Translations under genes and position numbers: made by a program
In this document: positions 2,055 to 34,404 of the stretch, piece after piece
Numbering within the stretch: the stretch's first letter is position 1
Layout: each line of letters starts with the position of its first letter
Assembly (NCBI GenBank): GCA_019915135.1
Contig: JAHLMK010000020.1
Coordinates: 862,431 to 926,430, forward strand
Source: Strobilurus pachycystidiatus
Lineage: Eukaryota > Basidiomycota > Agaricomycetes > Agaricales > Physalacriaceae
Reading direction: 5' to 3'
Length of the DNA: 64,000 bases
The notes under the pieces: generated by a model
What the model saw: the letters and a program-made list of their open reading frames with translations, nothing else
The model's database searches: none
Told to the model about the DNA's origin: nothing

Positions 2055-5000
2055 CTACGTTACAATGTACTTCTTTGCCGACGTTGGCAGTGCTCGCGGA
2101 CCACATCGTGGTCTATGTTTTGCATTTGAATCCCGTCCAGCGCATTCCCGAACACTCTGACTTCCGCAGTCTCGACACGCGTACTGACACATCCAAGACG
2201 ACTTCCGACCTTTACAATCCACTCCTCTCGTGCATCGGGGACACGACCGTGGCTCACGGTCGTGTGTCTTCTGTTTTTTATTTGCTTTGGGAGGTGCCGT
2301 GTCCTGCACACGTTTGCGAGCACGCTGGAGGATAGCATTGGTGGACGGTACGTCGCTTGCTAATGCAGATGGTGCAGAACCGGATGCACCAGAGCCAAAC
2401 GCGCCTGAGTCGGATGCCACGCCAGAGCCGGATGCACCAGAGCCGGATGCCACGCCAGAGCCAGATGCGCGAACAGCACGGGGCACGCCAGCACCTGACG
2501 CGGCGGATGAAGATGCGGCACTATTCTCTAGGGAAGAAAGGCCGCGGGAGGCTGTGTGGGGGCGCAATGGCTCAGACGTTGTTCGAAGAATTTGATTAGC
2601 GCGCGCGGAGTCCTCGATTCGTGCCTGCACCGGTTTTGTCTTGTCAAGAGCGAGGGAGACAGATTGACGGATGTTTGAATTTGTCTGCCAATCGCCATTG
2701 AAGTATGCTGTAAGCTGTTCTGAAAGCTAGAAGGTCTGATAAGTTTCATTCTGTACTGTGCAATGTTTTACTTACCTTGTAATAAACATCCGGACTTGTT
2801 TCCGCTTCTCGATTCCAACGCTTTACCGCTTCATTACTGATCGACCCTGTAGTTGAACGAAACTCGGGAGCGGTCTTCATGAGATGGGAGAAGAGCTTCT
2901 TCTCGGTAACAGAAGCAATGGGAAGAACAGCCTTACGGGTGCCCTGCATTCTGGCGAGGTATGCCTGTTTCTGTTTCTCGTAGGTCCGAGACATGAAAGG
3001 CTGCATCCCTGCTTGAACACGAAGCGCCTCGGATATCGGTACTATGCCCATTTCCTCGGTAGTTTGCTGGTAGAAGTTCCCGTTGACCCATGGAAGTACA
3101 ATCGGAGTTGTATCTGTGTAACGATCACTGAGAACAATCTCGAGCTCCTGTATCTCGTTACGAAGCCAGATCAAGTCATGGCTGAGATACTTTTTGCCAG
3201 TTGAATTGAACGTCCCGACCTTGATTAACGGTTAGAAGAGCCGAGTCTTTGAACAGTCGTCAACATACCAAGAGATTATGGCGAAGAATAAAGTCTAAAA
3301 GACATGCAACCATGTGTCGGACAGAGGCACCTCGACTCGGAAGGCGAGCAAGCAGATGAGTGTGCACACCACCTTCAGTGAAGTTTGTACCACGGAAGCA
3401 GCGATAGATTGCGAGGCCACCCGCTTGAGCATCGAGTCCAATACAGTAATATAGGGAGATTCCGGGTGGGTCAGAAACAAAGCCATTTCGGATAAGCTCA
3501 AGGATATTCTTGGCGGTATTCCATGCGTTCCGATTGAACAGAGGGAGCTGTGTCTTTGCGTCCTTCAATGGCCCCCATGTCTGGAAGAGGTCATGAATGA
3601 GTGGGTAGAGATGTTCAGGTGGTGGAATTGAACGACGACAATGGCGCCAGAGCCAGCGGGGTTTATAGCGAAGCATATCCTCCCATCGAAGGTTCTTGGT
3701 ACGCAGCCATGCCTCGATCCGTGCCTTATCATCTGGATCCGGAATGAAGAGCGCATCTCGAAAGGCATTGGCAAAGGGAACAAGAAGACCGTGGGTGCGT
3801 GAGATGTAGATCATATTGAAGACGTGGAATGGGTCCTTCAAAACGCGACTCCAAATCTGACAGAACTCTGCCTGGGACAGTACCCGAGGTCCCAAGCCTG
3901 CTGCAAGTCCAGCGCTCTCAGGATCATGCTGTGCACTTTCCCTCATCCTTGACACATCGGCAGGATCAAGATCAAAGCCATCATCCTCATCGCTGAGAGA
4001 AAGTAAGTCTCCAAGGCCAACATCTGGCCCAGGATCAAACTCAGAGGGAACGTCGGTATCGTATGGTCCAACAGTAGATGTATCACGAGGGTGTGAAGAT
4101 GACATGGACATAGACGGAGAGCCAGAGTGGGAGGAGCTTGTACGAACATGATTCCGATGACAGATGACCTCAAATGGGGTTTTTCCAAATGCTGCTAGGG
4201 TTTGCTTTCGATGCTGGCCCATTGCTACACGGTACCACAACATCGTCAACACGCACAACAACTCGAGAAGCTGTGATGTGGATATTGTCAACATAGAGCG
4301 ATGGTGGTGTATCTAAGAACCTCCATGAGTATTGAGAGTCAAGAGTATACTCGCATACTTGACTTGTCATAATAATCATGGGTATGACTCATTCTGATCC
4401 GCCGATCAAGAAGAGTCAAGTCAAAGATGGGTCGCAAGTATGAGTTTTGGAGACATGAATTTTCATAATAGGTGTATCATCATATATTCCTTGATTAAAT
4501 GAATGTTTTATGAATCCTCTATGTATATTTGATCAATAACTTCTATATAATAGTCATTCATTATATAAATGAAATGATATACACTTGAAAAGCAAGAGTA
4601 TCCGTGAGTATTGACTCGTTAAACCCATACTCATCTTGATCCGTACCCGTACGAGTCAAGTCAAAGAAGAGTCATGAGTATTGGTTTTGAAGCATGAGTA
4701 CTCGTGTCACGGGTCAAGAGTATACTCGAGTATTGACTCGTGGAGGTTCTTAGGTGTATCGGCTACCACTCCCCGTGCAATGACCCTTGTCTGGTCATCC
4801 GAGAGCACAAGGACAGGTGTACCAGTGGGAGCAGATGATGAAAGGAGATTGGGAATAGGAATGTTGCTCATCTTGTCATAAAGTGCAAGAGAGACGTAGG
4901 CGTCACAAGCGGCATATCTGATCTGTGCCGGTGTGAGATCACGATCAGACCAGTTGGTGGAGATTCGCTCGGCAATGTTCTTAGGTAGACATCGATTGAG

Positions 5001-6215
5001 CACACTGGCCGTCAAGTCCGCAAGTGAGAGATTGGCTCGTGTCACAAGAAAACGATCCTTTGCCATTGTTCCCAGCTCGAGTGCCCCAGTAAATGAGTTC
5101 TTGCCATATCCACAAGCAACTTCAAGCTGCCGTAGATCACCGTTAATCTGCCGGCCAGCCTTTCGAATCCTGGAGTTGCGAAGAAATAGAATGAGCTGAG
5201 CTGGTAAACGCTTCGATGCAAGGAATTCCCCAATCTGTAGATGATGAGTATATACAAATAGTATGAGAGATGGAAACTATACATACCACTAGTACAAACA
5301 CCTGTTTCTTGTAGGCAATCTGAACCACCGCTGTTGACCCGCGCCCAATGACATGGCCAGACGCTGCTGTCTCAACATTCCATTCGGAATCAAATCCAAC
5401 CACGATGTCACCACCGTCAACAGGAAGATCCTCCGAGATGGCATGTAGTGCATTATCGATGTCCGCAACGGACTTCAGGACGGTGATATTGATGTCAGAA
5501 GGAGGCGAGAACTTTGGGAGATGCGAGTTCTTCTCAACAGCAACAACGTCCTCGAGCAATGACTCAAAGATACTCTCGAGCATCCCCTTGTCCGCCATGT
5601 TGTCAGTGTAAAAGACAACCGGCTGCTCGTGTCCATACAAGTGAAGAGACTCAGACATCTTCTTCAATGCATCGACAAACTGCGAGTGAGACTTTGTGGC
5701 AACAAATACACAAACACGGATTTCGCCTCGCTCGTTTGTCACTGTGAGGAGTGCTGTAAAGATAGACACACCGTCAATCTTGAATACGTGCTTTGCGAGC
5801 TGCAAATCATGTTAGAAACACTGCCAAAAAAGTAGAGACCATCAAACCTTATGGCTGTGATCAATTGCAGAGACTCTAGCAGACAGCATGGCTGTGTGTT
5901 GGTTGAGCTCATGCTTGTGCATCTCGATGAAGCTGTCGTAAATATCCCGAAGCCATTGTCCACTGGGTACAAAGCCATGGAACCCACTGTCCGACATATC
6001 ATCAAAGTCGGGAAATGGTTCATAAACTTCGGTTGGGATAGCCATCCGTGCCACTTTGACGTGCAAATATTGCAGGCGAAGCTCGTCATAGCGGCGCAGA
6101 TGCTGCATCCGAAACATGTCCGCCACCTGATGCGCACCCATGCCGTTCTGAATACAAGACCGAACAACACCAAGGGCACCTTTTGACAATGCGCTGCGCC
6201 ATGTAAGATGTGCGG
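2055..6215 (-). pseudogene. 3' part of a disrupted DUF6729 / RNase H-like / 3'-5' exonuclease gene
   Basis: This continues the gene fragment at 12399-13592, cut off by the KDZ element. Minus-strand exons: 6215-5848, 5799-5287, 5234-3269 (holding a MITE), 3219-2776, 2726-2055. Seen in order: a MULE/DDE-like block with acidic residues in IDHSHKL and FYTDNMAD; a DEDDy exonuclease with ExoI FDSEWN, ExoII INGDLRQL and ExoIII YAACDAYVSL; a long conserved tail (EAWLRTKNLRWEDMLRYKP, GTNFTEGGVHTHL, VNGNFY, GTRKAVLP); and a Cys-rich end (CPRCTRGVDCKGR). Apart from the two transposon insertions there is an apparent 1-nt shift in a G run near 4216-4220, between the VVVPCSN frame and the FGKTPFEV frame. 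The exonuclease motifs themselves are intact. The family looks like the DUF6729-exonuclease proteins expanded in mushrooms; its role is unknown to me. Confidence 0.85.
4314..4752. mobile_element. 439-bp MITE with 8-bp target duplication GGTGTATC
   Basis: The ends are inverted: TAAGAACCTCCA at the left matches the complement of the right end TGGAGGTTCTTA. The 8-mer GGTGTATC flanks it at 4306-4313 and 4753-4760. It is AT-rich and carries several copies of motifs such as GAGTCAAG and AGAGTATACTCG near both ends. It has no coding capacity. It sits inside the exonuclease gene; subtracting the element plus one 8-mer restores the minus-strand reading across the site (VVADTP to PSLYVD). The 8-bp duplication suits hAT-like or KDZ/Zisupton-like transposases; the parent family is not identified. 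Confidence 0.88.
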
Positions 6216-6528
6216 AGTAATATGCTCGGACTAGGCACTAACACTGGCGTACACCAGTGTACACCAGTGGTCGGTGGTGTGTAGTGGTGAGCGGCACTGC
6301 CCGGCGTGAGCCGGTGATGTGGTTTGAACACCGGTGGGTGACAGTGTCATGTTACGTGACCGTTCGTTTTCGTTCTCCGTACAATCATCACCGTTCTACA
6401 CCGTAATACACTGGCCTACGCTGTCCTTGCACGCCGCCTCGGCCGATGTTTTTCGATCAGGCTCTAAGCTTTTCCAGGTTTTACACCTCGTCATACTGTG
6501 ACTCGTTGACTCCTTTTGTAAGACTATC

Positions 6529-9315
6529 ATGTCGGAACCGCCATCGACGAAAGCATTCAAGGGCAAAATCACCGACACTAACAAGAAGAAAGCGAACTTT
6601 CTTCTTCCTCTCGCCATTGTTTGGGGCGTTTGCAGCGCCGAGGATGGGGCAGCTCTGCAGCCAAGGGCGCTCCGCCCTCTACTCGCTGCATATTACGAGG
6701 AAAACAGGGAACGATTGAAGCAGGACCCTCTCTACAAGGACATTTGGCTCGATGATGCTGATATCGCCGCCGGAACAGGGTCCACCGCCCTGCCAGGACC
6801 GGCCCCGGCGCCACTAAAGGCTGGCGACACTGGCAAGGCCAAGGACAAGACGAGTGCCGACAAGGCGCGCGAGGATGAGGACGCTGAGATCAAAGATATA
6901 GCAGACGATGTTCAAGCTACCGGGTGCGTAATTCATCCTCTGTCAACCCTTCTTGTACGCCTCCTCAAGCCCGTTGATCAACAGTGCTGCAAGGAAACTC
7001 CTCGATGACCAGATCCCCATCGCTCCCACCCCAGCTTTCTCCAAATTGAATGGCGGCAAAGGTAAGAGAAACCTCCACTCTCAGAGAATCGCATCCATTG
7101 TTCCTTTAGATATGCGGGACATCGATAGTACTCAAGCCCGAGCCGGGACTACCGAGACGCAAGGTCTGTACACCGCCTCACCGACTTCGATTGATGTAAC
7201 ATATACCATCTAGGCAAGCAAAGCAAAGCAAAGGACAACGCCGTTGAGAAGGACGACGACGATGAAGAGGACGACGATGAAGAGGAAGACACAGACGGGG
7301 AGAGCGACACCAATAACGCACCAGACCAAGGAGAACCTGTCGAGCCACTCCCTGATGCGCTGCTCCAGGAGTACAAGGCCGTGAAGATAGCCGGTCGAAT
7401 GCGTGCGCAGTCCTCCTCCACTGATTTCCTGCTACCAATTCACTTGCTTATCCAGTTGTTGTCTCCCTCGAGTATAAGGACAAGGATAACCGTCATCTGC
7501 ACACGGAGGAGATTCCGCTGATTGAAAAGTCATCGCTGTCCTTCTATCAGAAGAAGGGTGACGACGACCTGTATGTCCAGCTCAAACAGGTCATCCCCGC
7601 AATATTCGTGTCTAGCTCTCCGACCAAAGGTACTGGCACGCGCTTCCATCTTTGTCTGCCGTCTGTCTGACTCTCTCCAACAGATCATACAAGCCGCTTC
7701 TTTCGCACAAGTCCTCTGAATGACGCCGGCCTGGTCTATCTTGGCAACACAGAGAACTTTCTCTCCGAAAATCTCCCGGACGCGCTCTCATTCGTGGTCG
7801 TGAATATGTACAAGGTGGAACTCGTTGAGAATATGATGTACTCGTGCCATCTATTCTCCAAGCAGGATCCAACCCGACAACGACCTGTTGCAGTCCCCGT
7901 ATGTTCGCTCTGATCCTACACATATACCTATTGACGCTTGAGTCAGCACTCCGGAGGCGTTACGGCAATCGCCACTACGCTCTTTCCATCTGCTAGTACA
8001 ACGCTAGTCGTTCCGAAGGTTCCAAAGGGCACGGTTACCGATGTGACTGTCCCAGACCCCAAACCTAATCTGACGAGCGCGCAGCAGAAAAAGATGTCGA
8101 CGGATGAGATAGAGGCATATGAACAAGAGCAGGTATGTCTTTGCACAATTCATCGTACTTAGTCGGGAACTGAGCTCCGAGTTAGAACGATCGCCAGGCT
8201 CTCATAGTAGCTCTACGGATCTACAAGTCCGAGGATGGGAAGTTCCCTCACAGTTTCTATGAATTTCTGCGCACAGAAGTTCTCCACATCGATTTTCGCG
8301 ATGACGACTTTCAGATTCTGGATGCTCCCGGCAGTACGCATGATTTATGATTCATCTGACCTGTCTGACGTCCGCTTCAGCCAATCAGCTCGTCATATTA
8401 GAGCGCCGCAAGCTCTTCGAGATACGTGTGCTTGATCAGCTCAAGGCGGAACGGTGGCAAAAGGGCCAAAAGTTCAAGGTCCCCATGGGATCAACCGAGA
8501 AGCGTAAGTTGCTGGCTTCCTCACTATCTCTATGGAGCTAACGACGTCTAGATAATCGCTGGGTTGACACTATCTTTGCGGAGCGCGACCTCTTTGGCAT
8601 GTTCGGATGGAAGAGCTCGCAGGCAATGACCGATAAACGCCATTTCGGTCCTGATGCCCGCAACAACCACTCGGCCATCAAAAAGTGGTGGGACGATCCA
8701 ACCAACGAGGACTGCTTGAAGCGGTTCAGATCTTTGTCGGCACCAAAGTTTGACGAGTGGATGAAGAGCGATACTCTGAAGGGGGAGAAGAAGAAGAAGG
8801 CGGGATCATCGAAGAAAAGTACGGTAAACCAGCATTCAGGACGGCGTGAGCGGTCCAGAGATGTGAGCCGCAACCGGGAACGCTCCAGGGAAAGGGTTCG
8901 AGGAAGGAGCCGTGAGAGAAGCCGTGAGAGAAGTCGAGAGCGGGGACGTGGTAGGAGGCAGAACACATTCCGTAGCCCGAGCCCAGGTGAGCTTACTTTG
9001 TCATCTCGTCAGCTGTATAGAGACTAACTGGAGTGCTTAGATTCCAAGCACAGCCATTCTCGCAACTCGAGAGCGAGTAGCAGTCCACTTCGCGAGGGAA
9101 GCAAGGCACAGGGTAGTACCAAGAGGAAGCATGTCGCATCACACAGCCCGGAGAGACGACGATCCAGGAGTCCTCCCAAGAAGAAGGTGCACAAGGTTGA
9201 GGAGAGAAGACGCGCCAATGATTATAAGGCTACGGGAAGTGATCGGTATGTGGATATCGACTTATTGGAGTCACCAGCTTCTAATGCGTCGTTTTTCGAT
9301 CTTTCGTCGGATTAG
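6529..9315 (+). CDS. Accessory (passenger) protein of the KDZ element, 11 exons, acidic tract and RS tail
   Basis: I do not recognise the family. Exons that keep the frame: 6529-6923, 6985-7061, 7110-7163, 7214-7402, 7456-7629, 7684-7898, 7947-8132, 8186-8333, 8381-8503, 8552-8986, 9041-9315. All introns are GT-AG and 48-61 nt. The product is 756 residues. Visible parts: a hydrophobic N-terminal patch (NFLLPLAIVWGVC), a D/E-rich tract near residue 190 (after a KQSKAK run), a globular-looking middle (about 240-560), then a Lys-rich stretch and an RS/RE-rich tail (SRERSRERSRERG) like those of splicing factors. The RS tail and basic runs suggest a nuclear protein; this is inference. The gene ends only 110 bp before the transposase ATG on the same strand. 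Its translation is the same in both element copies, so it appears to be kept under use rather than decaying. Confidence 0.82.
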
Positions 9316-9425
9316 TGCTAGCGATCACATAGATTCTGACTAGATATATACTTAGAAAGTGTCGTAGAAAATAGATCCTATACATAGCTTTTTTGGACCT
9401 CCTATTTGACGCCTTTCCCTCCTTC

Positions 9426-11667
9426 ATGCCGTCGTCATCGCAGGACCTTATATCGGTTATTTCACTGTTCTTCCCAGCGGGTGTAGGACTCGAGACTGTA
9501 CTGCTCACTCTTTGCACCATTGCGGCACTCTTCCCCATCTATCGTCTCCACGTCAATCAGCCGCGCGATGGCTCGCGTGCACGTCTTCACACTGCCTGGT
9601 TGACTGTCTTTGTTCATATCCTGGGCAAGTCTCTGGCCTCAGAGGACCCAAGCCCCTGGATGGACGATAATGAGCCGTTGGAGCATGCAGCGGCTATGGC
9701 TCGTGATGGGCAAGTCCTGTATAGTCTTCTTGGAATTGATGATATTGCATCGTCTTCCTCATTCATACCCCTTCCACCAGTTGTACTGGTGACTCGTCAT
9801 CTTGCATGCATCCTATGCCCCTTCCTTCCACATCCTACTCTCCGACATCGTGACAAGATTGTGTCTGTTCGTCTTCTTGATGAACAAAGACGGTGGCGGA
9901 CCGGTCATCTGCTGATCGCTCGATGTCTCTCTTGTCAATCGCACTACTATCCGGATCGTATTGTCTCTCCCACAGGAACTCGCAATCGCCGTATCATGAG
10001 ATTTGATTACGATGCACAGTATGTCAGGATTTCGAAACATGGGGTCTGGGTTCATAGATTCCTGGCGTTGGAGCAGGAGAAGGCCGTGGCTCGGTTCAAA
10101 TGCGGCTGGGCCAACTTTGCTGACTGGATGAATGACTCATTGTTGGCGCGCGGGGAAAAGAGAAAAATGACAGCCCGCCAGTCACGACGAATGTTTGTAG
10201 AGCATCTGTCTCGTCGATTACTAGTCTTTCACGGGAAGGCACAAGCCTTTACGTGTCCTTCGAACGCTACCACGGAGATCATGCTCATGTCAGTACGTGC
10301 TGCAATTGGCAACAATGGTGGAGTCCTACCCACAGCCATGCATCATGGCTGCATGGACTGTACGCACATGAAGCGCTACAAAGAAGATCTAGTCAGGGAG
10401 GGTGCTGATCTGGATGCTCCTGCCGATAGCATCGTAGATGATGTGAATGAAGAACTTCAGGTATCTGTATAGCTATGTGGGTGTATTGGGATAGCTTACT
10501 CAACTTTGACGCCAGGGACAACCACCACATCGTGAAGATACTGCAGATGACGAAGAAACAGAGAATCTCATCAGTGCTTATAACCGTCAGCTTCAACGTG
10601 CCGATCCAGCGCCACCTGATGTTGAGCCTCGGGGATACGTACGGTTAGCTGTAATGGATGGAAAAAACACGGGTCACCGAGTGAGTTTGAATTATGAATG
10701 GGAGAAGTGAGCTTGCTAATCAAAATCGCTACAGATTTGCGCTGTTCGGGATTGTAATGCACCGCTCAAGAATTACAAGAATGGGCGGTTCTGTGGGCAC
10801 CATCTCGATGCCGGTCTATCCCACATGTGCGGCCTTGTTGACTGTGGTCGTCCTGTGGCCCAAGGAGCCTTGACGTGCGATTTGCCGGCTCATCGCTCAT
10901 GGTATGCAAAGTATTCCAAGAGGTTCAAGCGGCTAGGTTTTGGAGGCGTTCAGCGTGTTATCAGAAGACAGCAACCTCATCCAAACTCGGACGCTACCAA
11001 TCCTACCCATCCCCCAATTACTCCCTTCACGGTTGAGCTGCCGGCACTCGCTGATCTTCCAGGCTCGCAGGTGCAGCACACCTTTCGCGCACGCACTGTG
11101 TACTGCATTCAGACTGTTCAGTGGTCTTGTGGAATCCCGATCGGATGGGGCAAGTGTTACAATTCGGAAAGCCCTTCTCAGGTTCTGAAAATTGTCGACG
11201 ATCTCTGGAGCGAGTATCCGGATCAGAAACCGGGTTTCCTCGCTTATGATAACGCATGCAAACTCCTTCGCCACATCATTACCCAGGATCGACAAAGTCA
11301 CTGGCTAGAGAGTACCAAGTTCATTGTTGATGCTTGGCATTACATTGGGCACAAAGCATCCGATGCCTTATGTCGCCTGTGGTGCAACCCTACTCCCCGC
11401 AACGGCTCACAGCCTGATCTCATTCAGACTGTTACAGATGATGCTGGCAATGTTCTACTAACACGGGCTTTCAACACGGAGACCGCCGAGCAGCTCAACT
11501 CCTGGTTAGATGGATTTGATTCGCAGTTGAGGCAGATGACAGATGTCACCTTCGACTTTTATCTTCATGTCTTGATGCTACTCTACTGGGATATGATCGA
11601 GGGGCGAATCGAGCAGAAGGATCGCGGTCTTTCGGCGGACTTTTGGGCAGCGGTACTAGGAGAGTAG
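9426..11667 (+). CDS. KDZ superfamily transposase with CxC5/CxC6-type cysteine clusters
   Basis: Exons 9426-10460, 10516-10680 and 10735-11667 give 710 residues. An in-frame stop at 9372 precedes it; ATG 9426 is the first ATG, and upstream residues would need a non-ATG start or another exon. The N-terminal half carries zinc-ligand-like pairs (ARCLSCQ near residue 167, HHGCMDC near 312). A second cluster follows at about 401-470 (CAVRDCN, FCGHH, MCGLVDCG, TCDLPAH). These look like the CxC5 and CxC6 clusters known from KDZ proteins. The RNase H-type core shows FLAYDNACKL (about 570), DAWHYIGH and NTETAEQLNSW (about 647), the usual D and E neighbourhoods. It should cut and paste the element by binding its ends. 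A TATATA at about 9342 could serve as its own promoter. Confidence 0.92.
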
Positions 11668-11818
11668 TCGGGCGGAATGAAAAAGTTGTTGACCATTACG
11701 GTTGTTCTCACAGTGGCGGTCGTGCACACAACCAAGGCCCAAAATGCGGGCTAGTGATGAATGTGACACTGGCAGTATTACTTACGAGGTCAGGGATGAC
11801 CATAAAAGGATAAGGAAA

Positions 11819-11860
11819 CCGTTAACCATATAAGGTCAGTTAACCTTATAGGGATAACGG
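11819..11860. repeat. Hairpin just downstream of the KDZ transposase
   Basis: A 17-nt arm (CCGTTAACCATATAAGG, 11819-11835) faces CCTTATAGGGATAACGG (11844-11860) over an 8-nt loop; 14 of 17 positions pair. It lies 152 bp past the transposase stop and recurs at 33816-33857 in copy 2. It could be a 3'-end/processing structure or a transposase site; the role is unknown. Confidence 0.5.
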
Positions 11861-11879
11861 GTGACTGTACGTGATGCAT

Positions 11880-12398
11880 GAGTGATATTCTCGGTCCATA
11901 CCGGTGCGATGCACTGTGACACAGTGGCTAACGGTGTTGTACACTGTTCGCCATCAGCCCGAATTAGCCTACGGAGGTGATGCGCCAGTGACGAGCAGTG
12001 GATCTCACCGTATCCCAGCACGTTTCCCGCTGTCTTACACCGGATAACACCGCCGAGCACTGGTACAATCGCTCGCAAACCTCGTTGCGAAAATAGCAGT
12101 GCATTCCACTGGTATACAGCACATTCCACCGCATGACACTGGCAGGAATGACACAAAGTGTGCGTCAAGTCAACAGTGCATTACACTGTACTGCGCTGTA
12201 CAGCAGAGCATTGTACAGGTGGAATCAGAGAGTCGCCCACTGGCGTACAGTGTAATGTACTGTGAGACACTGGTAAAAAGGGCGCCAGAATGTGAGCGGA
12301 TGCGACAGTGCATTACACTGTACAGCGGCGGCAGCGCCGCTGCTGTGCACTGTACTCCAGTGCCTCGGACTGTATCGCCTAGTCCGGGCATAAGACTG
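11880..12398. repeat. Subterminal CACTG/CAGTG motif array of KDZ copy 1, right end
   Basis: About twenty CACTG or CAGTG pentamers are crowded here in both orientations, often as pairs (for example CAGTGCATTACACTGTAC twice, near 12174 and 12308, and CCAGTG or CACTGG repeatedly). The left end (6240-6350) has a shorter version (ACACTGGCGTACACCAGTGT). A GC-rich inverted repeat, AGCGGC/GCCGCT, lies near 12323-12342. Such subterminal arrays are usually transposase binding sites; that is inference here. Confidence 0.65.
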
Positions 12399-13592
12399 GA
12401 TGTGCGGGGAACTCAGCCGAAAGGGAACAAGGAAGGTTCCGCAGAACACGCTCGTCCCAGCTCCGCATCTTGAGATTACAGGGCTTGCAGGCATAGCTGT
12501 ACCCAATTAGCCAGTAGGTATGGTCCAGATCAATGACACGTCGAGGGCGTTTGACAATACCGTCGCGCGTCAACCGTTGGCTGCAGTGGGGACAGGCAAT
12601 ACCCGTTGTGAGATGATCTAATGGATCCCAGACAAAGAACAAGGGCGCAAACAGATGTTGGGGACGAAGGTTTGTTTTATTGAGGGAGAAGTATGGGGAA
12701 TGGGAGGGGTACCAGAACGTCCGATGCTTTGCTGCACAAGAGGTGCCGGCTTTGCGCTCCTTTTCGACTTGCGCAATGACAGTGTCAAGTGCGTCCTTGA
12801 ACCAAGACGCATATGGGTGGCGGCGCGGACCGCTCTCCGTCTCCTCATCAACGTCGGGACTGTCTCCATCCTCTCCATCATCTCCGATACCCTCACCCAT
12901 CAACGAGTCCAGATGCCCGTCTGACCCGTCGTCGAAGTCGTCAGAAATGAATTGGAAGGGATCTACATTCCGCATTGCGGCGGAGGCAGCGGGAGTAGGA
13001 GGTGGGGCCGAGGAAGGCGCATCGTGTTCCATAGCACGACGCGTGCTCTCGACAACGGATCGCGCAGAAGTGTTGGCGGGCAACGAGGCGGTGGTGGGGG
13101 AAGCAAAAGCGGTGGGGTCAGAGGAAGATGGAGCTGGCGTGGAAGAGGAAGCTATGGGGCGCGATTCGCGTGCGCCAGTCGGCTCTCGTGTGTGTTGATG
13201 CGCCCGTTGGCCCGAGACGTGCTGGTGTGATATTTAGAAAAGCATTGCACAAAAATGAAACAACTCACCAGTCCTGTTATAGCCGTGCCGCGCTCTTCCT
13301 GATCCCTAATTGCGTTCCGTCGTGCAATCTGGCGATGTCCTGAGCCGGGAGGGCGTCCTACTGGCCGCTTGGCCTCAGCATGAGGTGGCAGCGTGCCCGG
13401 CTTGGATGCATTCTTTGAGCCCTTAGGACGACCGCGCCCCCGAGCTGTTGCAGATGTAGATCGACCGTCGGACAGCGATGTAGACGCTGTCGATAATCCG
13501 CCAGCTACATCGAGAGGTGCCGACGCCGGCGGCTCGACGACGACAAATTGATATTCGAAGTTTGAGCCAAAGGAGGGCGTCGAGCGAGCCAT
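12399..13592 (-). pseudogene. 5' part of the disrupted DUF6729 / exonuclease gene (AT-hooks, DUF6729-like domain)
   Basis: Starts at ATG 13592. Exon 1 is 13592-13269 and exon 2 starts at 13221; the 47-nt intron is GT-AG and phase 0. Two AT-hook-like motifs appear early (GRGRPKGSK near residue 50, KRPVGRPPG near 73), followed by an acidic stretch and then a domain I assign to DUF6729: FWYPSHSPYF, FAPLFFVWDPLDHL, CPHC, a second CKPC pair, and MRSWDERVLRNLP. The frame meets the KDZ element directly after residues SAEFPAH. Reading across GATGTGCGG into 6206 and below continues the same frame (LTWRSALSKG), so the element interrupted a previously continuous exon. What remains can encode only the DNA-binding-like N-terminus. 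Confidence 0.88.
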
Positions 13593-15664: not shown

Positions 15665-16969
15665 ATGGTTGCCCAGACTCGTCAAAAACCGATAACTCTC
15701 CAATGGAACGCTGCCATTGGACAGGACGTCGCTCCGCCTGAGGTGAACCATGATGAGCAGATGCAGGAAGTGGATCCGAACGGCAATCTCATTCCGCCCC
15801 CTGCTCCTCCGTCTCGTGAGGCAACGGCTGAGCCTGCAAACGATGGCAACTTCACAGAGGAGGACGCGCCCCCGAAACCAGCGAGGAAGAGGACGGGAGC
15901 AAAAGCCCCTGCTCGCAGGGCGGGAAAAGGCAAAGGAACGCTGGTCGCTGCCGACACTGTGGAGGATTTGGCTTCATCTACCGGTGACGTCGCTGTCGCT
16001 GCTCTATCTCGCCGAGTGCAGACGACAAACACAGACGTTGGGAAGGTCAAATTAGACCTGCAACGACACAGGTCCGAGGTCACTGGCCAGCTCATCACAA
16101 TCCAAAAGTCCATCGCGTCCGCGTCCCCTTCCGCCGAACTAGCGAAAGTCAAAGCCGACTTTACGCGCTACAAATCAGAAATGACCACCGAGCTGGACAC
16201 CATCCGCGCGCTGCTCCCCGGTCCCGACGCTTATCCCGCCGTCAGGAGTGACGATGTCATGCTCACGGCTGTCAAGGCCATTGCCGAGCACGACTTCAAG
16301 CCCGTCATCGAGAGTGTCGTGGACAACTACGATATTGGCGGCAACGCCTCCCTTGCTCAGGCGTTCGATTACGTCCAACGCCTCATCGACGGCCAGACGA
16401 GGCAGAATGACACCAATGAGACAGCAGACAAGCGTATGACAATCCTCGAATCGGACGCCAGAGGGACAAAACGGTCATTTCAGGAACTGAAGGGCGATCT
16501 CGAGAAAACCACCGCACTCGCGAATAAGGTGGATGGGAAGGTAGACGCGAGGCTGCTGGCTGTGCCCGCCAGTGAGGGTAATGTCAGGTCGGGAACCGCG
16601 CCGGTCCTTACGAGGTCGTCCGCTCTTCATCAGCAGTCTAGCCAGGACCCTTACACGGGGGGAAACAAGCGCCCTCGCTGGGATGGTTTCAACCGAGTGC
16701 CCGAGCGCGACGGTTTCGCAGTCGAATACGGGCCCGTCCCCGACGCATTGTCTCTCAAGGCTATTGCAGAATGCTTGGCGGAGGGTTTCGGAGGTTCGAA
16801 GAACGATCTCACCTCCGTCGCTCCTCGTTGGGCATATGGGGTTGCTCGTCACGTCGTGGTACAGTTCCGTACTTACGAGCTGGCTGAGCGGGTTGTCGAC
16901 GGTGTGGCCCGAGGCCTGAACCCCATCCTATCTGGGAGGATCCGCCATGTCGACAGCATGCCGCGGTAA
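15665..16969 (+). CDS. LINE ORF1 protein
   Basis: 434 residues in one open frame. The N-terminal third is Pro/Ala/Lys-rich and basic (ARKRTGAKAPARRAGKGKG near residue 80). Residues about 110-280 look helical with heptad-like spacing (two similar segments, KVKLDLQRHRSEVTGQL and KVKADFTRYKSEMTTEL), consistent with a coiled coil. Residues about 360-430 form a compact segment (DALSLKAIAECLAEGFGG, HVVVQFRTYELAERVV) that could be a small RNA-binding fold. No CCHC knuckle is seen. ORF1 proteins of LINEs package the RNA. It lies 208 bp before ORF2 on the same strand, and the layout is that of a non-LTR retrotransposon. Confidence 0.8.
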   Translation: MVAQTRQKPITLQWNAAIGQDVAPPEVNHDEQMQEVDPNGNLIPPPAPPSREATAEPANDGNFTEEDAPPKPARKRTGAKAPARRAGKGKGTLVAADTVEDLASSTGDVAVAALSRRVQTTNTDVGKVKLDLQRHRSEVTGQLITIQKSIASASPSAELAKVKADFTRYKSEMTTELDTIRALLPGPDAYPAVRSDDVMLTAVKAIAEHDFKPVIESVVDNYDIGGNASLAQAFDYVQRLIDGQTRQNDTNETADKRMTILESDARGTKRSFQELKGDLEKTTALANKVDGKVDARLLAVPASEGNVRSGTAPVLTRSSALHQQSSQDPYTGGNKRPRWDGFNRVPERDGFAVEYGPVPDALSLKAIAECLAEGFGGSKNDLTSVAPRWAYGVARHVVVQFRTYELAERVVDGVARGLNPILSGRIRHVDSMPR

Positions 16970-17177
16970 TTCTCCTCTCTGTTTCTCTGTTTGTCTCTTT
17001 GTCTTACTTTCAACCTCGACGTAGCCTTACAAAAATGTGCCCCCCGACGCGTTCTACAAATACGGTTCAAAATTTGGATACAGATATCCCTACACATACG
17101 TCTTCACATTCGGTATTGCTTCTTCCATAACTATAGACTACGGTTTGCTCAATTGATACACGATGCTCTAGCCCCAA

Positions 17178-20100
17178 ATGAATGGTCGCAACAGTATGAG
17201 GATAGTGTCGTGGAACATCGCAGGCTCCTTGCTGATCAAGATCCGTGATCCTCAAATGCAGGCCCTCATTGCCTCATGTGATATCGTCTTCCTGCAAGAA
17301 ACCTGGCTGAGACCGGGGGATGACGACCATCTGCTGCTACCCCAAGGTTTTGAGGTTTTCTCGTGTCCACGACCAGTCGATGCCCTGTCCTCCGCAGCCT
17401 GTGGGGGGGTGCTCGTGCTGTATCGGATTGAGCTACCGGTGAGCTTCCACACGGCGCTCTGTCGACCAGACATCTTGTGTTTTGATGTTGGCGATGAATG
17501 GACGATCTGCGGGGCGTATCTTGCGCCGGTGGGGTCATCGTGGCTGTCTCATCCCCAGGGCGACATGCCAAGAATTACGGAGGAGGTTTTGGCGGGCTGT
17601 GCAGTGCGAGGCGGCGATAGACATCTGGTTTTCATGTCTGATGTCAATGGTCGCATTGGACACCTCCAGTCAACGGACGGCCCGCTTCGCCTCTCCGAGG
17701 ATGCAGCGGCGAAGAATCCGCGGGGAACTTGGCTGATGAAAACGGCGGAAGAGGCCTCTCTGGCCGTTGTCAATGGGACTTTTCTTGACTGTGACTCTCC
17801 GGGCTTGTACACCTCGCATCAGAGAGGTGTTCGTCGAGGGGGGAAGAGTGTGGTGGATTATCTCCTGGTGTCCAAGTCAGCTCTTTCTCTCCTCCGTCCG
17901 AATACTCTGCGGGCTGTACGCATGGACCCCAGGTGGTCCGACCATTCCGTGCTCCAGTTTCAACTGCCACTGCACATGCCGCCTCCGGATCGCCAGCGTT
18001 TGAGCAGCCCTCTCCCCGACGTTGCCAGTGATGAGATCACCATGCGCGCGCTTCGACCGCTATGGTTCCAGCAACACCCCACCATCGACGTGCTGGCCGC
18101 CTCGGTCAAGACGTCCATGCGCGATGGAATGCATTCTGTGAATATTTTCTACGGGCCTGCCACTCCCAGTGAGAAGACGACAAACACTTACATCACTGCC
18201 TATCGCGCGAGGAAACCTGGCGTCGGGTATGTTGCCGCGTATGCAATGGCCAGGGGTGGTAACACCAGGGCGGCGGCGGGTTCCCTCCTCCCGCAGGGCT
18301 TGGGTACCTCCTTGATCCACGCTTTGCTTGCTGCCGTCATCAAGTCACTGGCGCTCTCTCCCGGAACAACGATTTGTCGGTGTTACACTTCCTCGGAGGA
18401 GCTTGCACATCTCATTGCTTGTGAGATGCCTCGCCGAGCAAATACGGGGTATCTTGGACGCGGGGGGGCTCTCGAGAGGTCGCTGGTGGATGCAATCCGT
18501 GGCCGGAAGGCACAGGTGCAGATATGGGTGATGCAGTCCGATCTGGACCGTCATATCATGCGAGAATTGGAAGGGGTGGCAGAGCGTGTCTGGCGCGCGC
18601 AGTCACCAGTCTTCTGCGTACCACACTCTCCTGCCTCACAAGGATTTCTGCCTTCCTTCCCGCCGGGCTCCTCCGCCAAGGTTTTCTCCAACCTGCCCTT
18701 CCCCGCCAGACCGGCGCGCTCCCTGGACGATTCTGCTCGTCAGATGCTCACTCGCAGCGACATGGCCGATGGTTCTCTCATGGCGAAGAAGACGTCTGCA
18801 GTGGCCCACGAGATGATGCTCGACAATCTATACAAGCTCACCTCCGCGCGCTCTCCTCGGGAATACTGGCAATTTATTGCTATGTGGACAAACCCTCGAA
18901 GGAGGCAATCCCGCGTCGTTAACGCCGTCTTGGCAAAATCGTTCCGTACGCGATTAAACCCCCCCGCCATCCTGCCTGCCCACTTCAACAATGTCGTCAA
19001 GAGCCTCATGATTGGTCTCGCGGATCTTATCCCGGAGATCACCGTGGACATCTCCCCGAAGAAGTCTTTCTCCCGGCCGTTCGCATTGGAGGAGGTCGAG
19101 GGCGCAATGAGGAAGATTAGAACTAGAGCCGCATCTTCGCCTGGTGTCGACGCGGTGACATATCCAATGATTGCGGTCTGCCCAAACGAGTTGATTGTCC
19201 AGCTGTTTCGGGAGTGTGTCGCTCATTGTACGGCTCCGACAGTCTGGTTGGTGACAATGCTCATTGGAATATTGAAAGGCGGGCCGGATAAGCCTGCGAA
19301 TGACCCGGAGAGCTACAGGCTAGTGGGTCTCGAGTGCTGCCTCGTGAAGGTATTTGACCTGTGCCATTAAAGTATGTAATCTGACTTCTTTCAGGTCTTT
19401 ACCCTTCTCGTGGAGGGACGTGCAATCGAATGGGAGGCCGACGTGGGGATTATACCAGATACCCAGAATGGTTTCTTGCGCGGGAGGCGGGGATCAAATA
19501 ATCCCTTCATCTTGCGATGTGCTATAGACAACGCGAAGCGGCTGGGGAGGAAGCTCTACGTCGTGTTCATTGACCTGAAGAACGCCTTCCCCGCGACCGA
19601 CCTTCCTACCCTCTGGGTCAAGCTTTTCCGACGCGGAATGCGCGGCCCTATCTTCGACTGGTTGCGTATGCTCTACGCCCGCATGCGCTATGTCGTGAGG
19701 CATGATGGTCAGAGAAGTGGGGAGTTTAAGTCCCTCATTGGTGTGCTTACGGGAGACTCCTTCTCGCCGTTCCTGTGGAACCTGTACTTCGCTGATGTCA
19801 GCCGGATGATTCCTGCCACGGACGACGACATTGTCTTTGGGACGCGAAGAGTGGGTAATGTGGAGCACGCGGACGACGTCGCTATGTGGTCCACAAGCAT
19901 TGTCTCGTTGCAGAAGAAGGTCGACGCATTCTTCGATTGGTGCAAGACAAACTTCATGATCATGTCCGTGGCCAAGAGTCAGTGGATGGTCTTCAATGGC
20001 ACCTCTGCCCGCGGCGACGCATTGCGCGTCGATGGAGCCATGCTTCAGGAGGTGGACCATTACAAGTTCATTGGCATCCTCTTTGCGTCAGGCCCTGGTT

Positions 20101-21158
20101 CAACTTTCCGCCGCCACTATCGGAAGCAGGCCAAGCAGGCAAAGGCGGTAACAGCGGTTTCGACTACTCTTCAGCAGTTTGTCGGAGTCGTGGCGCCTGT
20201 CGACGGTCTCAACGTCTATAGGGCGATCGTGGAACCTCACTTGTTGTTTGGGGCCGACGTGGTACTGGATGTCGTCAAGAATCACTACCATATGTTGCAG
20301 GTGGCCCAGAATTATCACCTGTGTCGGGCTCTACGGCTCTCCATCCACACACCTTCTTTTGCGCTCTACCTCGAGACCGGGGTGCTTCCCATTCGCTACG
20401 CTCGGGTCATTGCCGCGGTCAAATTCTGTCACACGTCCCTTCACAAGACAAGGATCGCTATTCCTCACGACTGCATGGTGGATGCGCAGCTGTCCATGTC
20501 CTCTCCGTACTCTTGGGTGGCTGACCTCCGCGGCGTGCTGGCCGATCTGCCCGTTGCTGTCCGTCTGAACAACTGGGATTGCGACACGATGGCCTCTCCG
20601 GGTTGGTGCGAAAGTGCCATCGCAGCGATTCGGAAGTCTGCTGACTCTTTCCTCCGCATGGCTGCTCAGGACTCCAAGTGCCACCTCTTGACGGCGAGGA
20701 TCTCCTTGCCGATGAATCACAAGCAGAACGTAATCCAGTTACAGGCCTATCTGCGTATTGGCCCGCCTGCGCACAGGCTCGCACTCACTCGTCTTGCTTT
20801 CAGTGACCACAGACTGGCGGTTGAGGTACTCAGACGTCCTTCGAGGGCTCAGCCCGTCCCGGTCCCTCGCTCCGAGCGTTGGTGTAGGTTTGGATGCGGA
20901 GTAGCGGAAGATGACGTCCATGCTCTTCTGAGTTGTGAAAACGATGAGACAATTGTCGACTTGCGTGAGGACTTCTACGCTGATGTATGGCGGTACTACC
21001 CGGCTGCAAAGCGGGTCATCAAGACGTCTCCGTTGGGAAGTACGCAGGCGTTGACGGCACTTTTCTTCGACGAGGTTGTCATGGGCAGATTTGCAAAGTT
21101 TGTGGCTGAGGTGTTTGCGCGATTCGATTGTTTTCCTGTATATATTCCTTCCATTTAG
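17178..21158 (+). CDS. LINE ORF2: EEP endonuclease, reverse transcriptase, C-terminal zinc knuckle
   Basis: Read from ATG 17178. Endonuclease signatures: IVSWNIAG, FLQETWL, SDVNGRIGH, and SDHSVLQF at about residue 255. The reverse transcriptase follows: KIRTRAASSPGVDAVTY, GILKGG, YRLVGLECCLVK, then FIDLKNAF (motif A), GDSFSPFLWNLYF (motif B) and HADDVAM (motif C, with H in place of the usual Y/F). A C-x3-C-x7-H-x4-C knuckle (CRFGCG...HALLSC) is near the end. An apparent stop at 19368 lies inside a 45-nt GT-AG segment, 19350-19394 (donor GTATTT, branch-like CTGAC, acceptor TTTCAG). Splicing it out gives a continuous 1311-residue protein. The frame is otherwise intact. The clade is not resolved. 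Confidence 0.9.
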
Positions 21159-22301: not shown

Positions 22302-24052
22302 CAGTATCCAGATCCGGGATCTCAAGTGTCCGGGAAGGTAATTGGACGGGACACTCGAGTGTCCCGGGGTATCGAATACACTGTATATTGAGTCCTACCG
22401 AACAATACATCGAGTAAGCAACCACGATCACTCGGGTAATTCTAAGACTTGAGGGTACTGAAACTTGAATGATGAATACTGGCCATGTTACATGTATGGA
22501 AGGAATACTTGACTCACACTTGAGTAGCTGAGTTCTTGTAAAACTCAAGGGTACCGGATCAGGAAATCGTACACTTGAGGAGGTTAATTACCCGGGATCC
22601 TTAAGGGAACGGAATACTTGTGGGAAGAACACTTGAAGGAATCAAATACTCCTCCAGTAGCAACATTCAAGGATACCGACTATTCGAGCAAAGGGTGCAG
22701 AAAGAAGACACGGTGTCCAATCGTCGCCGAGCAACCGTTGACCCAGGGGAGACGACGGATGCTCACTGGTCAACTTTAGGTGGCTGAACGTTGGTGAGCG
22801 CAATCTGCATGAGTGTGAAACGGTGACGCGCCTTTAGGCCACAAGAAGCGTTACCTCCCTTTCTTCACTGGTGTCGACGGCGTTCCCGGCGCCGCCATCG
22901 TCCAAGATCCTTTGAGCGTTCATGGTAAAGTTGGTCGAGCGGCTCGATCCGGGGAGCGGCCAAGGTAGTTGATTGGCGGTGGTCGAGTGGCGATGGTTGT
23001 GGTAAGTGGACAAGTCAGAAAGGCTCACGTGGTGACTGATCTGAGAACAAAGGCCGCCAAATGTTCTGTTGCCGACAGCCCGAAGATAAGATAGCAAATT
23101 AGAGGGCATGATCAAGTGGCGCGAAACACAACAATGTGATAGAGGACGTCGCGAAGGGAACATTGTTAGGCCTTTGTTCGAGGATCTACACCACGTGATG
23201 TTTTCTCTCTTGTCTTCTTACCACGACGTGTGCCACTGGAGCTCTCTGATTCTTCCCGCTCATGCGCCGTGGGCCTTGGACGTTGGACAGCGTGTTGGAC
23301 AGCGCGTCGGTACGGCATCGACCGGTGGCTACCTAGACAGCAGCGGGTGCGTGCCACTGGAAGTCTGGACCTACCCCCACTCACCCGCCCACAAGACCCA
23401 CGTGTGCCACTGAAGCTCTCTGGATCTCCTGGCCCATATTCCGTGTGCCTTGGACGTCGGACAGCGCGTCAGTACGACTGATGGCGACCTAGACAGCGGT
23501 GTGTGCCACTGAACGTCTGAAGCTACCCCCACTCACCCGCTCACAGGACCCCGACCCGACGCCATAAATCGACAACACATCAAGTTTATCGGTCACGGTG
23601 TCTCGATGCTTTCGACACTGTGGTCGAGACCTCAGGTCGCAAAACTCATAAGTTGACGCGCTCAAGTGCGGGACTCATCAAACAATCTACTCCTCCATTC
23701 CCTCGCTTCGAGTAAACGGACCCTCGAGTCGACGGATACGCAAGTAAAGGTTCTATCGAGTGGTACTTCCTTCTCCTCTTACTTGGAACTCGAGACCCTC
23801 GAGTGTCCTGCTTACTCAAGTGTTTCTAATCCTCAAGTACTTTGCTCACTCAAGGTTTCCGTTACGTTGATGACTCACACACCCAAGGTTGCGGTACCCT
23901 TGAGTGTTAGAATTACTCAAGTGATTGTGGTTACTTAGATACTCGATGAATTGTTCGGTACGAATCAATATACAGTGTCTGATAACCCGGGACACTCGAG
24001 TGTCCCGTCCAAGTACCTTCCCGGATACTTGAGATTCTGGATCTGGGTTTAT
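22302..24052. mobile_element. 1751-bp nested DNA transposon with long inverted ends, target duplication GTACCGC
   Basis: Flanked by GTACCGC at 22295-22301 and 24053-24059. The terminal 120 or so bases at each end are imperfect inverted repeats (CCAGATCC, then ATCTCAAGTRTCCGGGAAGGTA). They include the same perfect 18-bp palindrome GGGACACTCGAGTGTCCC at 22348-22365 and 23989-24006. The inner flanks hold many copies of CTCAAGTG/CACTTGAG and shorter ACTTGAG forms. No coding region is recognised. It is inserted in the larger 21543-24431 element. Confidence 0.82.
23229..23548. repeat. Diverged tandem duplication, unit about 173 bp, inside the nested element
   Basis: GTGCCACTGGAGCTCTCTG at about 23230 recurs as GTGCCACTGAAGCTCTCTG at about 23403, followed in both by GTGYCTTGGACGTYGGACAGCG-like sequence and CTACCCCCACTCACCCGC. 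Two units, the second slightly shorter. Confidence 0.65.
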
Positions 24053-28159: not shown

Positions 28160-28525
28160 GGAAGTAGCCGGGGCGAGCGCGAATGGTGATTGCCCGCGTT
28201 GAGCAGCGCGTGAGTAATATGCTCGGACTAGGCACTAACACTGGCGTACACCAGTGTACACCAGTGGTCGGTGGTGTGTAGTGGTGAGCGGCACTGCCCG
28301 GCGTGAGCCGGTGATGTGGTTTGAACACCGGTGGGTGACAGTGTCATGTTACGTGACCGTTCGTTTTCGTTCTCCGTACAATCATCACCGTTCTACACCG
28401 TAATACACTGGCCTACGCTGTCCTTGCACGCCGCCTCGGCCGATGTTTTTCGATCAGGCTCTAAGCTTTTCCAGGTTTTACACCTCGTCATACTGTGACT
28501 CGTTGACTCCTTTTGTAAGACTATC

Positions 28526-31312
28526 ATGTCGGAACCGCCATCGACGAAAGCATTCAAGGGCAAAATCACCGACACTAACAAGAAGAAAGCGAACTTTCTT
28601 CTTCCTCTCGCCATTGTTTGGGGCGTTTGCAGCGCCGAGGATGGGGCAGCTCTGCAGCCAAGGGCGCTCCGCCCTCTACTCGCTGCATATTACGAGGAAA
28701 ACAGGGAACGATTGAAGCAGGACCCTCTCTACAAGGACATTTGGCTCGATGATGCTGATATCGCCGCCGGAACAGGGTCCACCGCCCTGCCAGGACCGGC
28801 CCCGGCGCCACTAAAGGCTGGCGACACTGGCAAGGCCAAGGACAAGACGAGTGCCGACAAGGCGCGCGAGGATGAGGACGCTGAGATCAAAGATATAGCA
28901 GACGATGTTCAAGCTACCGGGTGCGTAATTCATCCTCTGTCAACCCTTCTTGTACGCCTCCTCAAGCCCGTTGATCAACAGTGCTGCAAGGAAACTCCTC
29001 GATGACCAGATCCCCATCGCTCCCACCCCAGCTTTCTCCAAATTGAATGGCGGCAAAGGTAAGAGAAACCTCCACTCTCAGAGAATCGCATCCATTGTTC
29101 CTTTAGATATGCGGGACATCGATAGTACTCAAGCCCGAGCCGGGACTACCGAGACGCAAGGTCTGTACACCGCCTCACCGACTTCGATTGATGTAACATA
29201 TACCATCTAGGCAAGCAAAGCAAAGCAAAGGACAACGCCGTTGAGAAGGACGACGACGATGAAGAGGACGACGATGAAGAGGAAGACACAGACGGGGAGA
29301 GCGACACCAATAACGCACCAGACCAAGGAGAACCTGTCGAGCCACTCCCTGATGCGCTGCTCCAGGAGTACAAGGCCGTGAAGATAGCCGGTCGAATGCG
29401 TGCGCAGTCCTCCTCCACTGATTTCCTGCTACCAATTCACTTGCTTATCCAGTTGTTGTCTCCCTCGAGTATAAGGACAAGGATAACCGTCATCTGCACA
29501 CGGAGGAGATTCCGCTGATTGAAAAGTCATCGCTGTCCTTCTATCAGAAGAAGGGTGACGACGACCTGTATGTCCAGCTCAAACAGGTCATCCCCGCAAT
29601 ATTCGTGTCTAGCTCTCCGACCAAAGGTACTGGCACGCGCTTCCATCTTTGTCTGCCGTCTGTCTGACTCTCTCCAACAGATCATACAAGCCGCTTCTTT
29701 CGCACAAGTCCTCTGAATGACGCCGGCCTGGTCTATCTTGGCAACACAGAGAACTTTCTCTCCGAAAATCTCCCGGACGCGCTCTCATTCGTGGTCGTGA
29801 ATATGTACAAGGTGGAACTCGTTGAGAATATGATGTACTCGTGCCATCTATTCTCCAAGCAGGATCCAACCCGACAACGACCTGTTGCAGTCCCCGTATG
29901 TTCGCTCTGATCCTACACATATACCTATTGACGCTTGAGTCAGCACTCCGGAGGCGTTACGGCAATCGCCACTACGCTCTTTCCATCTGCTAGTACAACG
30001 CTAGTCGTTCCGAAGGTTCCAAAGGGCACGGTTACCGATGTGACTGTCCCAGACCCCAAACCTAATCTGACGAGCGCGCAGCAGAAAAAGATGTCGACGG
30101 ATGAGATAGAGGCATATGAACAAGAGCAGGTATGTCTTTGCACAATTCATCGTACTTAGTCGGGAACTGAGCTCCGAGTTAGAACGATCGCCAGGCTCTC
30201 ATAGTAGCTCTACGGATCTACAAGTCCGAGGATGGGAAGTTCCCTCACAGTTTCTATGAATTTCTGCGCACAGAAGTTCTCCACATCGATTTTCGCGATG
30301 ACGACTTTCAGATTCTGGATGCTCCCGGCAGTACGCATGATTTATGATTCATCTGACCTGTCTGACGTCCGCTTCAGCCAATCAGCTCGTCATATTAGAG
30401 CGCCGCAAGCTCTTCGAGATACGTGTGCTTGATCAGCTCAAGGCGGAACGGTGGCAAAAGGGCCAAAAGTTCAAGGTCCCCATGGGATCAACCGAGAAGC
30501 GTAAGTTGCTGGCTTCCTCACTATCTCTATGGAGCTAACGACGTCTAGATAATCGCTGGGTTGACACTATCTTTGCGGAGCGCGACCTCTTTGGCATGTT
30601 CGGATGGAAGAGCTCGCAGGCAATGACCGATAAACGCCATTTCGGTCCTGATGCCCGCAACAACCACTCGGCCATCAAAAAGTGGTGGGACGATCCAACC
30701 AACGAGGACTGCTTGAAGCGGTTCAGATCTTTGTCGGCACCAAAGTTTGACGAGTGGATGAAGAGCGATACTCTGAAGGGGGAGAAGAAGAAGAAGGCGG
30801 GATCATCGAAGAAAAGTACGGTAAACCAGCATTCAGGACGGCGTGAGCGGTCCAGAGATGTGAGCCGCAACCGGGAACGCTCCAGGGAAAGGGTTCGAGG
30901 AAGGAGCCGTGAGAGAAGCCGTGAGAGAAGTCGAGAGCGGGGACGTGGTAGGAGGCAGAACACATTCCGTAGCCCGAGCCCAGGTGAGCTTACTTTGTCA
31001 TCTCGTCAGCTGTATAGAGACTAACTGGAGTGCTTAGATTCCAAGCACAGCCATTCTCGCAACTCGAGAGCGAGTAGCAGTCCACTTCGCGAGGGAAGCA
31101 AGGCACAGGGTAGTACCAAGAGGAAGCATGTCGCATCACACAGCCCGGAGAGACGACGATCCAGGAGTCCTCCCAAGAAGAAGGTGCACAAGGTTGAGGA
31201 GAGAAGACGCGCCAATGATTATAAGGCTACGGGAAGTGATCGGTATGTGGATATCGACTTATTGGAGTCACCAGCTTCTAATGCGTCGTTTTTCGATCTT
31301 TCGTCGGATTAG
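28526..31312 (+). CDS. Accessory (passenger) protein of KDZ copy 2
   Basis: Exon structure is that of copy 1 shifted by 21997: 28526-28920, 28982-29058, 29107-29160, 29211-29399, 29453-29626, 29681-29895, 29944-30129, 30183-30330, 30378-30500, 30549-30983, 31038-31312. It gives the same 756-residue product with acidic tract and RS-rich tail. All splice sites and frames are kept. Its presence in two independent insertions shows that it travels with the element and is not a one-time capture. Confidence 0.82.
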
Positions 31313-31422
31313 TGCTAGCGATCACATAGATTCTGACTAGATATATACTTAGAAAGTGTCGTAGAAAATAGATCCTATACATAGCTTTTTTGGACCTCCT
31401 ATTTGACGCCTTTCCCTCCTTC

Positions 31423-33664: not shown

Positions 33665-33815
33665 TCGGGCGGAATGAAAAAGTTGTTGACCATTACGGTT
33701 GTTCTCACAGTGGCGGTCGTGCACACAACCAAGGCCCAAAATGCGGGCTAGTGATGAATGTGACACTGGCAGTATTACTTACGAGGTCAGGGATGACCAT
33801 AAAAGGATAAGGAAA

Positions 33816-34395
33816 CCGTTAACCATATAAGGTCAGTTAACCTTATAGGGATAACGGGTGACTGTACGTGATGCATGAGTGATATTCTCGGTCCATACCG
33901 GTGCGATGCACTGTGACACAGTGGCTAACGGTGTTGTACACTGTTCGCCATCAGCCCGAATTAGCCTACGGAGGTGATGCGCCAGTGACGAGCAGTGGAT
34001 CTCACCGTATCCCAGCACGTTTCCCGCTGTCTTACACCGGATAACACCGCCGAGCACTGGTACAATCGCTCGCAAACCTCGTTGCGAAAATAGCAGTGCA
34101 TTCCACTGGTATACAGCACATTCCACCGCATGACACTGGCAGGAATGACACAAAGTGTGCGTCAAGTCAACAGTGCATTACACTGTACTGCGCTGTACAG
34201 CAGAGCATTGTACAGGTGGAATCAGAGAGTCGCCCACTGGCGTACAGTGTAATGTACTGTGAGACACTGGTAAAAAGGGCGCCAGAATGTGAGCGGATGC
34301 GACAGTGCATTACACTGTACAGCGGCGGCAGCGCCGCTGCTGTGCACTGTACTCCAGTGCCTCGGACTGTATCGCCTAGTCCGGGCATAAGACTG
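33816..34395. repeat. Hairpin and subterminal CACTG array of KDZ copy 2, right end
   Basis: Counterpart of 11819-12398: the 17-nt hairpin at 33816-33857 and the dense CACTG/CAGTG motifs up to the inverted terminus. No difference from copy 1 was noticed. Confidence 0.6.
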
Positions 34396-34404
34396 CAGCG
34401 CGTG

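Follow-up and report, generated by a model that had tools for sequence, protein, structure and literature searches.

A second gene, apparently under selection, in a CxC5/CxC6 DNA transposon lineage of Strobilurus pachycystidiatus

A 64,000-nucleotide stretch of the Strobilurus pachycystidiatus genome (assembly GCA_019915135.1, contig JAHLMK010000020.1, positions 862,431 to 926,430; hereafter the window) contains two full copies of a transposon that encodes a CxC5/CxC6 transposase and, upstream of it, a second gene of 11 exons, which is the principal subject of this analysis. Copy 1 occupies window positions 6215-12398 on the plus strand (6184 bp), and its boundaries match exactly those of copy 2 at 28212-34395 on the same strand, giving a spacing of 21997 bp. 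Only one of the 6184 bases differs between them, at position 11535 within the transposase gene, where CAG and CAA both encode Gln. The copies end in imperfect terminal inverted repeats (TIRs) of 22 bp, GAGTAATATGCTCGGACTAGGC on the left and CAGTCTTATGCCCGGACTAGGC on the right, and are flanked by exact 8-bp target-site duplications (TSDs) that differ in sequence from one copy to the other: GATGTGCG at 6207-6214 and 12399-12406 around copy 1, and CAGCGCGT at 28204-28211 and 34396-34403 around copy 2. This combination of TIRs with an 8-bp TSD, a Zisupton-like trait, is present in both full copies. As the initial annotation of this DNA had claimed, the second gene lies on the transposase strand in both copies, its stop codon 110 bp upstream of the transposase ATG; in copy 2 it occupies 28526-31312 and is identical to the copy 1 version, while the transposase gene (31423-33664, plus strand) carries the one synonymous difference.

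Insertion of copy 1 has broken a minus-strand reading frame, the parts of which lie at 5845-6214 and 12407-13233. When the flanks are joined after removal of the element and one TSD, a single frame of 399 amino acids is restored that contains a DUF6729 domain (E 1.5e-22), and paralogues on contigs C16 and C9 align gap-free across the insertion site. The exact TSDs, the two near-identical copies and the paralogous empty site together identify a DNA transposon that was recently mobile, which supports the earlier description of the element as apparently active; it is probably an autonomous two-gene DNA transposon. A pattern search for the TIRs allowing at most 1 mismatch returned 6 matches, 5 of which are ends of three copies, namely the two full ones and a decayed third one on contig C35. 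The sixth match, on contig C14, was judged to be due to chance. A solitary 62-bp stretch at C9:566756-566817 is 81% like the left end of the element, with neither gene within 1.5 kb, and is possibly a non-autonomous relative.

The second gene (6529-9315, plus strand) encodes 752 amino acids, a model based on its open spliced frame and its relative on C35. It extends from an ATG at 6529 to a stop codon ending at 9315, and its 10 introns (6924-6984, 7062-7109, 7164-7213, 7403-7455, 7630-7683, 7899-7946, 8133-8197, 8334-8380, 8504-8551 and 8987-9040) are all of the GT..YAG type and 47-65 nt long. Intron 4 has an ambiguous donor, permitting 753 or 750 codons including the stop; the multi-exon frame of the initial annotation is retained, but its length of 756 residues is replaced by 752. 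With at most 10 introns permitted, a dynamic program reached 786 amino acids for the longest spliced frame on the real plus strand and 215 amino acids on the reverse strand, and 120 first-order Markov shuffles gave a mean of 224 and a maximum of 478 amino acids, results that bear out the 11-exon gene. It could be argued that no gene exists here and that the frame is an artefact of choosing introns that keep it open, given that the introns were picked by eye, that one donor is ambiguous and that an initial automatic model run under different settings yielded 15 introns and 647 codons. This explanation is hardly credible, as all 120 shuffles fall far below the real frame and the C35 relative has two of the same introns and a low ratio of nonsynonymous to synonymous differences (pN/pS). 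The second gene is a genuine coding gene.

The encoded protein starts with a short N-terminal region, followed by a low-complexity part that is acidic; beyond the middle region (residues 236-600) lie a basic tail rich in arginine and serine (RS) and, at the C-terminus, a further acidic stretch. Both the acidic tract (residues 188-206) and the RS-rich tail (approximately residues 605-710, isoelectric point 12) that had been noticed at the outset are present, and with this acidic tract and very basic, RS/K-rich tail the protein looks nuclear. The initial annotation went further and proposed a link to splicing or nuclear speckles, where the protein would help to remove the element's 12 introns. 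Such a number is indeed found in the two genes combined, and the RS tail, RRRSRSPP included, is preserved in the decayed C35 copy. SR proteins are defined by an N-terminal RNA recognition motif (RRM) and an RS domain of at least 50 residues with at least 40% RS/SR. The second protein resembles them in its RS-rich segment but differs in that Pfam scans detect no RRM and that RS/SR dipeptides make up only 19 of 50 residues (38%) in the best 50-residue window, slightly below this threshold. Furthermore, the element's introns are short and of the ordinary GT-AG type, and RS-like tails also serve in nuclear localisation and in the binding of nucleic acids. The tail is thus suggestive at most, and a role as splicing helper is considered improbable.

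Whether the gene is decaying or maintained is answered by the C35 copy and not by the open frame in the twin copies; the earlier argument from in-frame exons was apparently right about maintenance but not about the evidence, as open frames in near-identical copies say nothing on selection. The C35 copy shares its right end with the element, no recognisable left end or second TSD being found there, and a relative of the second gene sits upstream of its broken transposase. A dN/dS-type comparison among copies, as had been proposed, yields 53% identity over the 278 codons (of 752) that could be aligned, with pN 0.344, pS 0.793 and a pN/pS of 0.43 (bootstrap 0.37-0.51) at synonymous sites that are saturated. 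For the transposase the corresponding values are 69.5% identity over 341 of 710 codons, pN 0.187 and pS 0.753 (bootstrap pN/pS 0.21-0.30). A recount without the low-complexity RS tail gave 54% identity over 207 codons and a pN/pS of 0.40 (0.33-0.50), and the four aligned stretches of the second gene taken one by one ranged from 0.22 to 0.53. In 40 runs of neutral simulation put through the same alignment, the ratio was 0.84-1.26; being free of indels and almost fully alignable (648-747 of 752 codons), these runs indicate that the method is unbiased as such but do not fully mimic the picking of the best 278 codons, so that picking conserved stretches may still have an effect.

Conservation between the two lineages is uneven. 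Introns 8 and 9 agree in position and phase. The first part of exon 10 (8552-8800, plus strand, approximately residues 517-599), directly downstream of intron 9, forms a conserved block, and exon 11 (9041-9315, plus strand) encodes the end of the RS tail and the C-terminal motif RYVDIDLLxSPASNxSFFDLS, which at 76% identity is the best conserved stretch. The presence of a relative in the same place with shared introns indicates that the second gene resided in the transposon before the two lineages split. A host gene captured and carried by chance might be supposed from the absence of relatives in the protein searches made and from the ten introns, which are many for a transposon gene. Such a capture is nonetheless very unlikely: a genome-wide protein search of the 51.8-Mb genome found a relative only in the C35 copy and no host orthologue, and the gene also occurs alongside a transposase that retains only about 70% amino acid identity, with a low pN/pS between the two copies. 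The second protein is apparently under selection and not the product of chance capture, as far as these sequence comparisons indicate. As a separate observation, an AT-rich insert whose inverted ends are TGCATGAAACATA-like breaks the second gene on C35 (reverse strand 3166-3432).

The second protein appears to represent a new family within the scope of Pfam, the PDB and two protein-database searches. The Pfam scan gives it no recognisable domain, and no TET/JBP domain was matched at E up to 10, in keeping with the initial statement that it is not one of the TET/JBP genes. A DNA_pol_phi match (E 8.4) falls on the acidic tract and is not significant, and a DUF6645 match (E 0.15) to the N-terminal 80 residues was taken as noise; a genome search for DUF6645 at E up to 1 was empty, with its control silent too, and so was a literature search. 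Sequence searches of the PDB returned insignificant matches only. The structure search proposed for the middle region covered part of it, the exon-10 piece, and found no fold match at E up to 10, the AlphaFold model of this piece alone being poor (predicted local distance difference test score, pLDDT, 64). The two protein-database searches found no relative among 7993 and 289 scored candidates; they require shared exact 5-residue words, limit subjects to 0.55-1.75 times the query length and drew no words from the C-terminal motif (residues 713-752), and hence leave absence from other species undemonstrated. With the transposase as a positive control, 245 relatives were found among 7994 scored candidates, the 120 listed being fungal by name, which indicates that the database does contain mushroom proteins. 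Between the same two copies the second protein diverges more than the transposase, as the pN values above show, and relatives evolving at such a rate would escape the protein search. Scans of viral contigs matched neither gene, as expected for a fungal element, and literature searches covering titles and abstract openings found no report of the second gene.

The CxC5/CxC6 protein is encoded at 9426-11667 (plus strand) by 3 exons, with introns at 10461-10515 and 10681-10734, and has 710 amino acids. It matches the Pfam models of two KDZ-associated cysteine clusters, CxC6 (E 2.3e-19) and CxC5 (E 9.6e-13). The KDZ model itself (PF18758) gave no match in the 710 residues at E up to 10, and of the matches listed by a genome-wide search, in which 150 of 249 candidates were scored, none lies in the window. 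A comparison with a profile of KDZ cores drawn from 6 of 8 loci of the same genome was weakly positive (E 0.0036, probability 9%, same motif order), while a control region scored E 0.24. The label KDZ in the initial annotation is accordingly only loosely right on sequence grounds, holding for the cysteine modules but not for the core model. DDE transposases are recognised by three acidic residues set in an RNase H-like fold, and the protein shows this arrangement, with D393, D572 and E652 as candidate catalytic residues. Foldseek matches to its model were not significant, and the assignment draws on a VIA-align re-reading of the Foldseek list together with colinear motifs and conserved acidic residues; on this basis, the protein is very likely the element's own DDE transposase. 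Its closest relatives are mushroom proteins, the best among the matches listed being from Hymenopellis radicata (69% over 87% of the query).

CxC5 sequences occur at 14 places in the genome, and the second gene accompanies 3 of them, the two window copies and C35. It was not found within about 1.5 kb on either side of the remaining 11 (best E 1.1), nor in about 6.3 kb read upstream of C1:2123304 or in a further 4 kb checked at C6:2291333. At C1:4672284 and C35:67396, which belong to another lineage and are 81% identical, similarity starts about 125 bp ahead of the transposase start; if this point is the left end of that lineage, there is no space for an upstream gene. The second gene marks one transposon lineage within this genome. 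Elsewhere, C1:2117000-2124971 carries a Kyakuja-like KDZ reading frame followed by a CxC5/CxC6 gene on the same strand, with a very similar CxC5 stretch at C1:2028743.

The non-coding ends of the element are densely occupied by a short motif. The left end (6215-6528) has 6 CACTG/CAGTG motifs in 314 bp and the right end (11668-12398) has 20 in 731 bp; the combined count of 26 in 1045 bp compares with 2.2 expected and a maximum of 6 in 500 shuffles. Within the element's genes the density is 1.8 per kb, and 45 kb of the remaining window average 2.7 per kb; the right end on C35 contains 19 in 473 bp. Arrays of short motifs in transposon ends are typical sites for end-binding proteins. It is proposed that the second gene is a stable, selection-maintained part of this transposon lineage and encodes a nuclear accessory protein, a partner of the transposase that would bind the element's ends or help to assemble the complex at the CACTG/CAGTG arrays of both ends or, alternatively, would regulate expression of the element. 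By analogy with the accessory protein TnpA, a role in transposition or in its regulation is given roughly even chances. A more specific proposal is put forward tentatively as a possibility: in a two-gene CxC5/CxC6 lineage of mushrooms, the fast-evolving second protein may be a new type of cofactor that loads the transposase on the CACTG arrays, and the same gene may sit in the MSH4 insert of Pleurotus ostreatus.

Several points weigh against an accessory role. The missing Pfam domain and fold match belong here, as do the saturated sites and the limits of the simulations. The C35 copy, moreover, is a pseudogene with stops and frameshifts; part of its divergence must be neutral, and the true constraint is probably stronger for that reason. 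The 11 CxC5 places without a nearby second gene indicate that not all CxC5/CxC6 elements need one, and the CxC5/CxC6 clusters of the transposase could bind the end repeats unaided. A different function has also to be considered, in which the second protein, for example as an acidic/basic histone- or RNA-binding protein, shields the transposon from host chromatin silencing by a biochemistry unlike that of TET/JBP. An acidic tract with a basic tail is common among chromatin proteins, and VANC of plant Vandal elements is thought to act in anti-silencing. Fungal KDZ and other elements are described as carrying genes thought to counter silencing (PMC12730594). Pfam assigns the second protein neither an enzyme domain nor a chromatin domain, and an anti-silencing factor is regarded as rather doubtful.

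Other features of the window, as read by eye, include frames at 10-1512 and 15665-21158 that resemble a Ty3/gypsy integrase with chromodomain and a LINE-like endonuclease/reverse transcriptase. A 294-nt unit is repeated three times head-to-tail at 61314-62195, the later units being 80% and 71% identical to the first, and a 79-nt inverted repeat (22308-22386 and 23968-24046, 86% complementary, 1581 nt between) possibly belongs to a small transposon.

Accessory genes are already known from DNA transposons, among them the fungal KDZ elements with TET/JBP genes (PMC12730594), and the CxC5/CxC6 class is hardly described in the literature searched. The present analysis suggests that proteins whose only annotation is "CxC5/CxC6 cysteine cluster" are the DDE transposases of DNA transposons that are complete and were recently mobile. 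At least one lineage retains a second gene without recognised relatives, apparently selected, which raises the question of its part in transposition or in escape from silencing.

Among known systems, En/Spm (CACTA) elements combine a catalytic and an accessory protein (TnpA) with subterminal arrays of short motifs at both ends and a 3-bp TSD. The present element resembles them in its two genes and in the motif arrays of both ends, with the accessory role predicted here, but it shows no detected protein relation and has an 8-bp TSD. In Kyakuja and Zisupton elements, too, a fungal DNA transposon carries an additional gene, TET/JBP, and Zisupton also has 8-bp TSDs, whereas two Kyakuja families described from Laccaria lack TIRs and have TSDs of 7 bp; the element differs from these KDZ transposons in that its extra gene is not TET/JBP and its transposase has no PF18758 match (PMC12730594). 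The remaining parallel is the MSH4 gene of a sporeless strain of P. ostreatus, where a 6792-bp insert encoding one CxC5/CxC6 protein of 739 amino acids recurs 23 kb away as an exact copy in reverse orientation and is suspected by its authors to be linked to Copia retrotransposons (PMC7641404). Insert and element are about equal in size, share a CxC5/CxC6 protein and a second copy nearby, and have no KDZ core found alongside; the words TSD and TIR are absent from the main text on the insert, and no second gene is mentioned in the passages covered (PMC7641404). About 4.5 kb of the insert lies beyond the CxC5/CxC6 gene and might contain the second gene. The MSH4 insert is probably a DNA transposon with its own transposase, a reading offered here in place of the Copia link.
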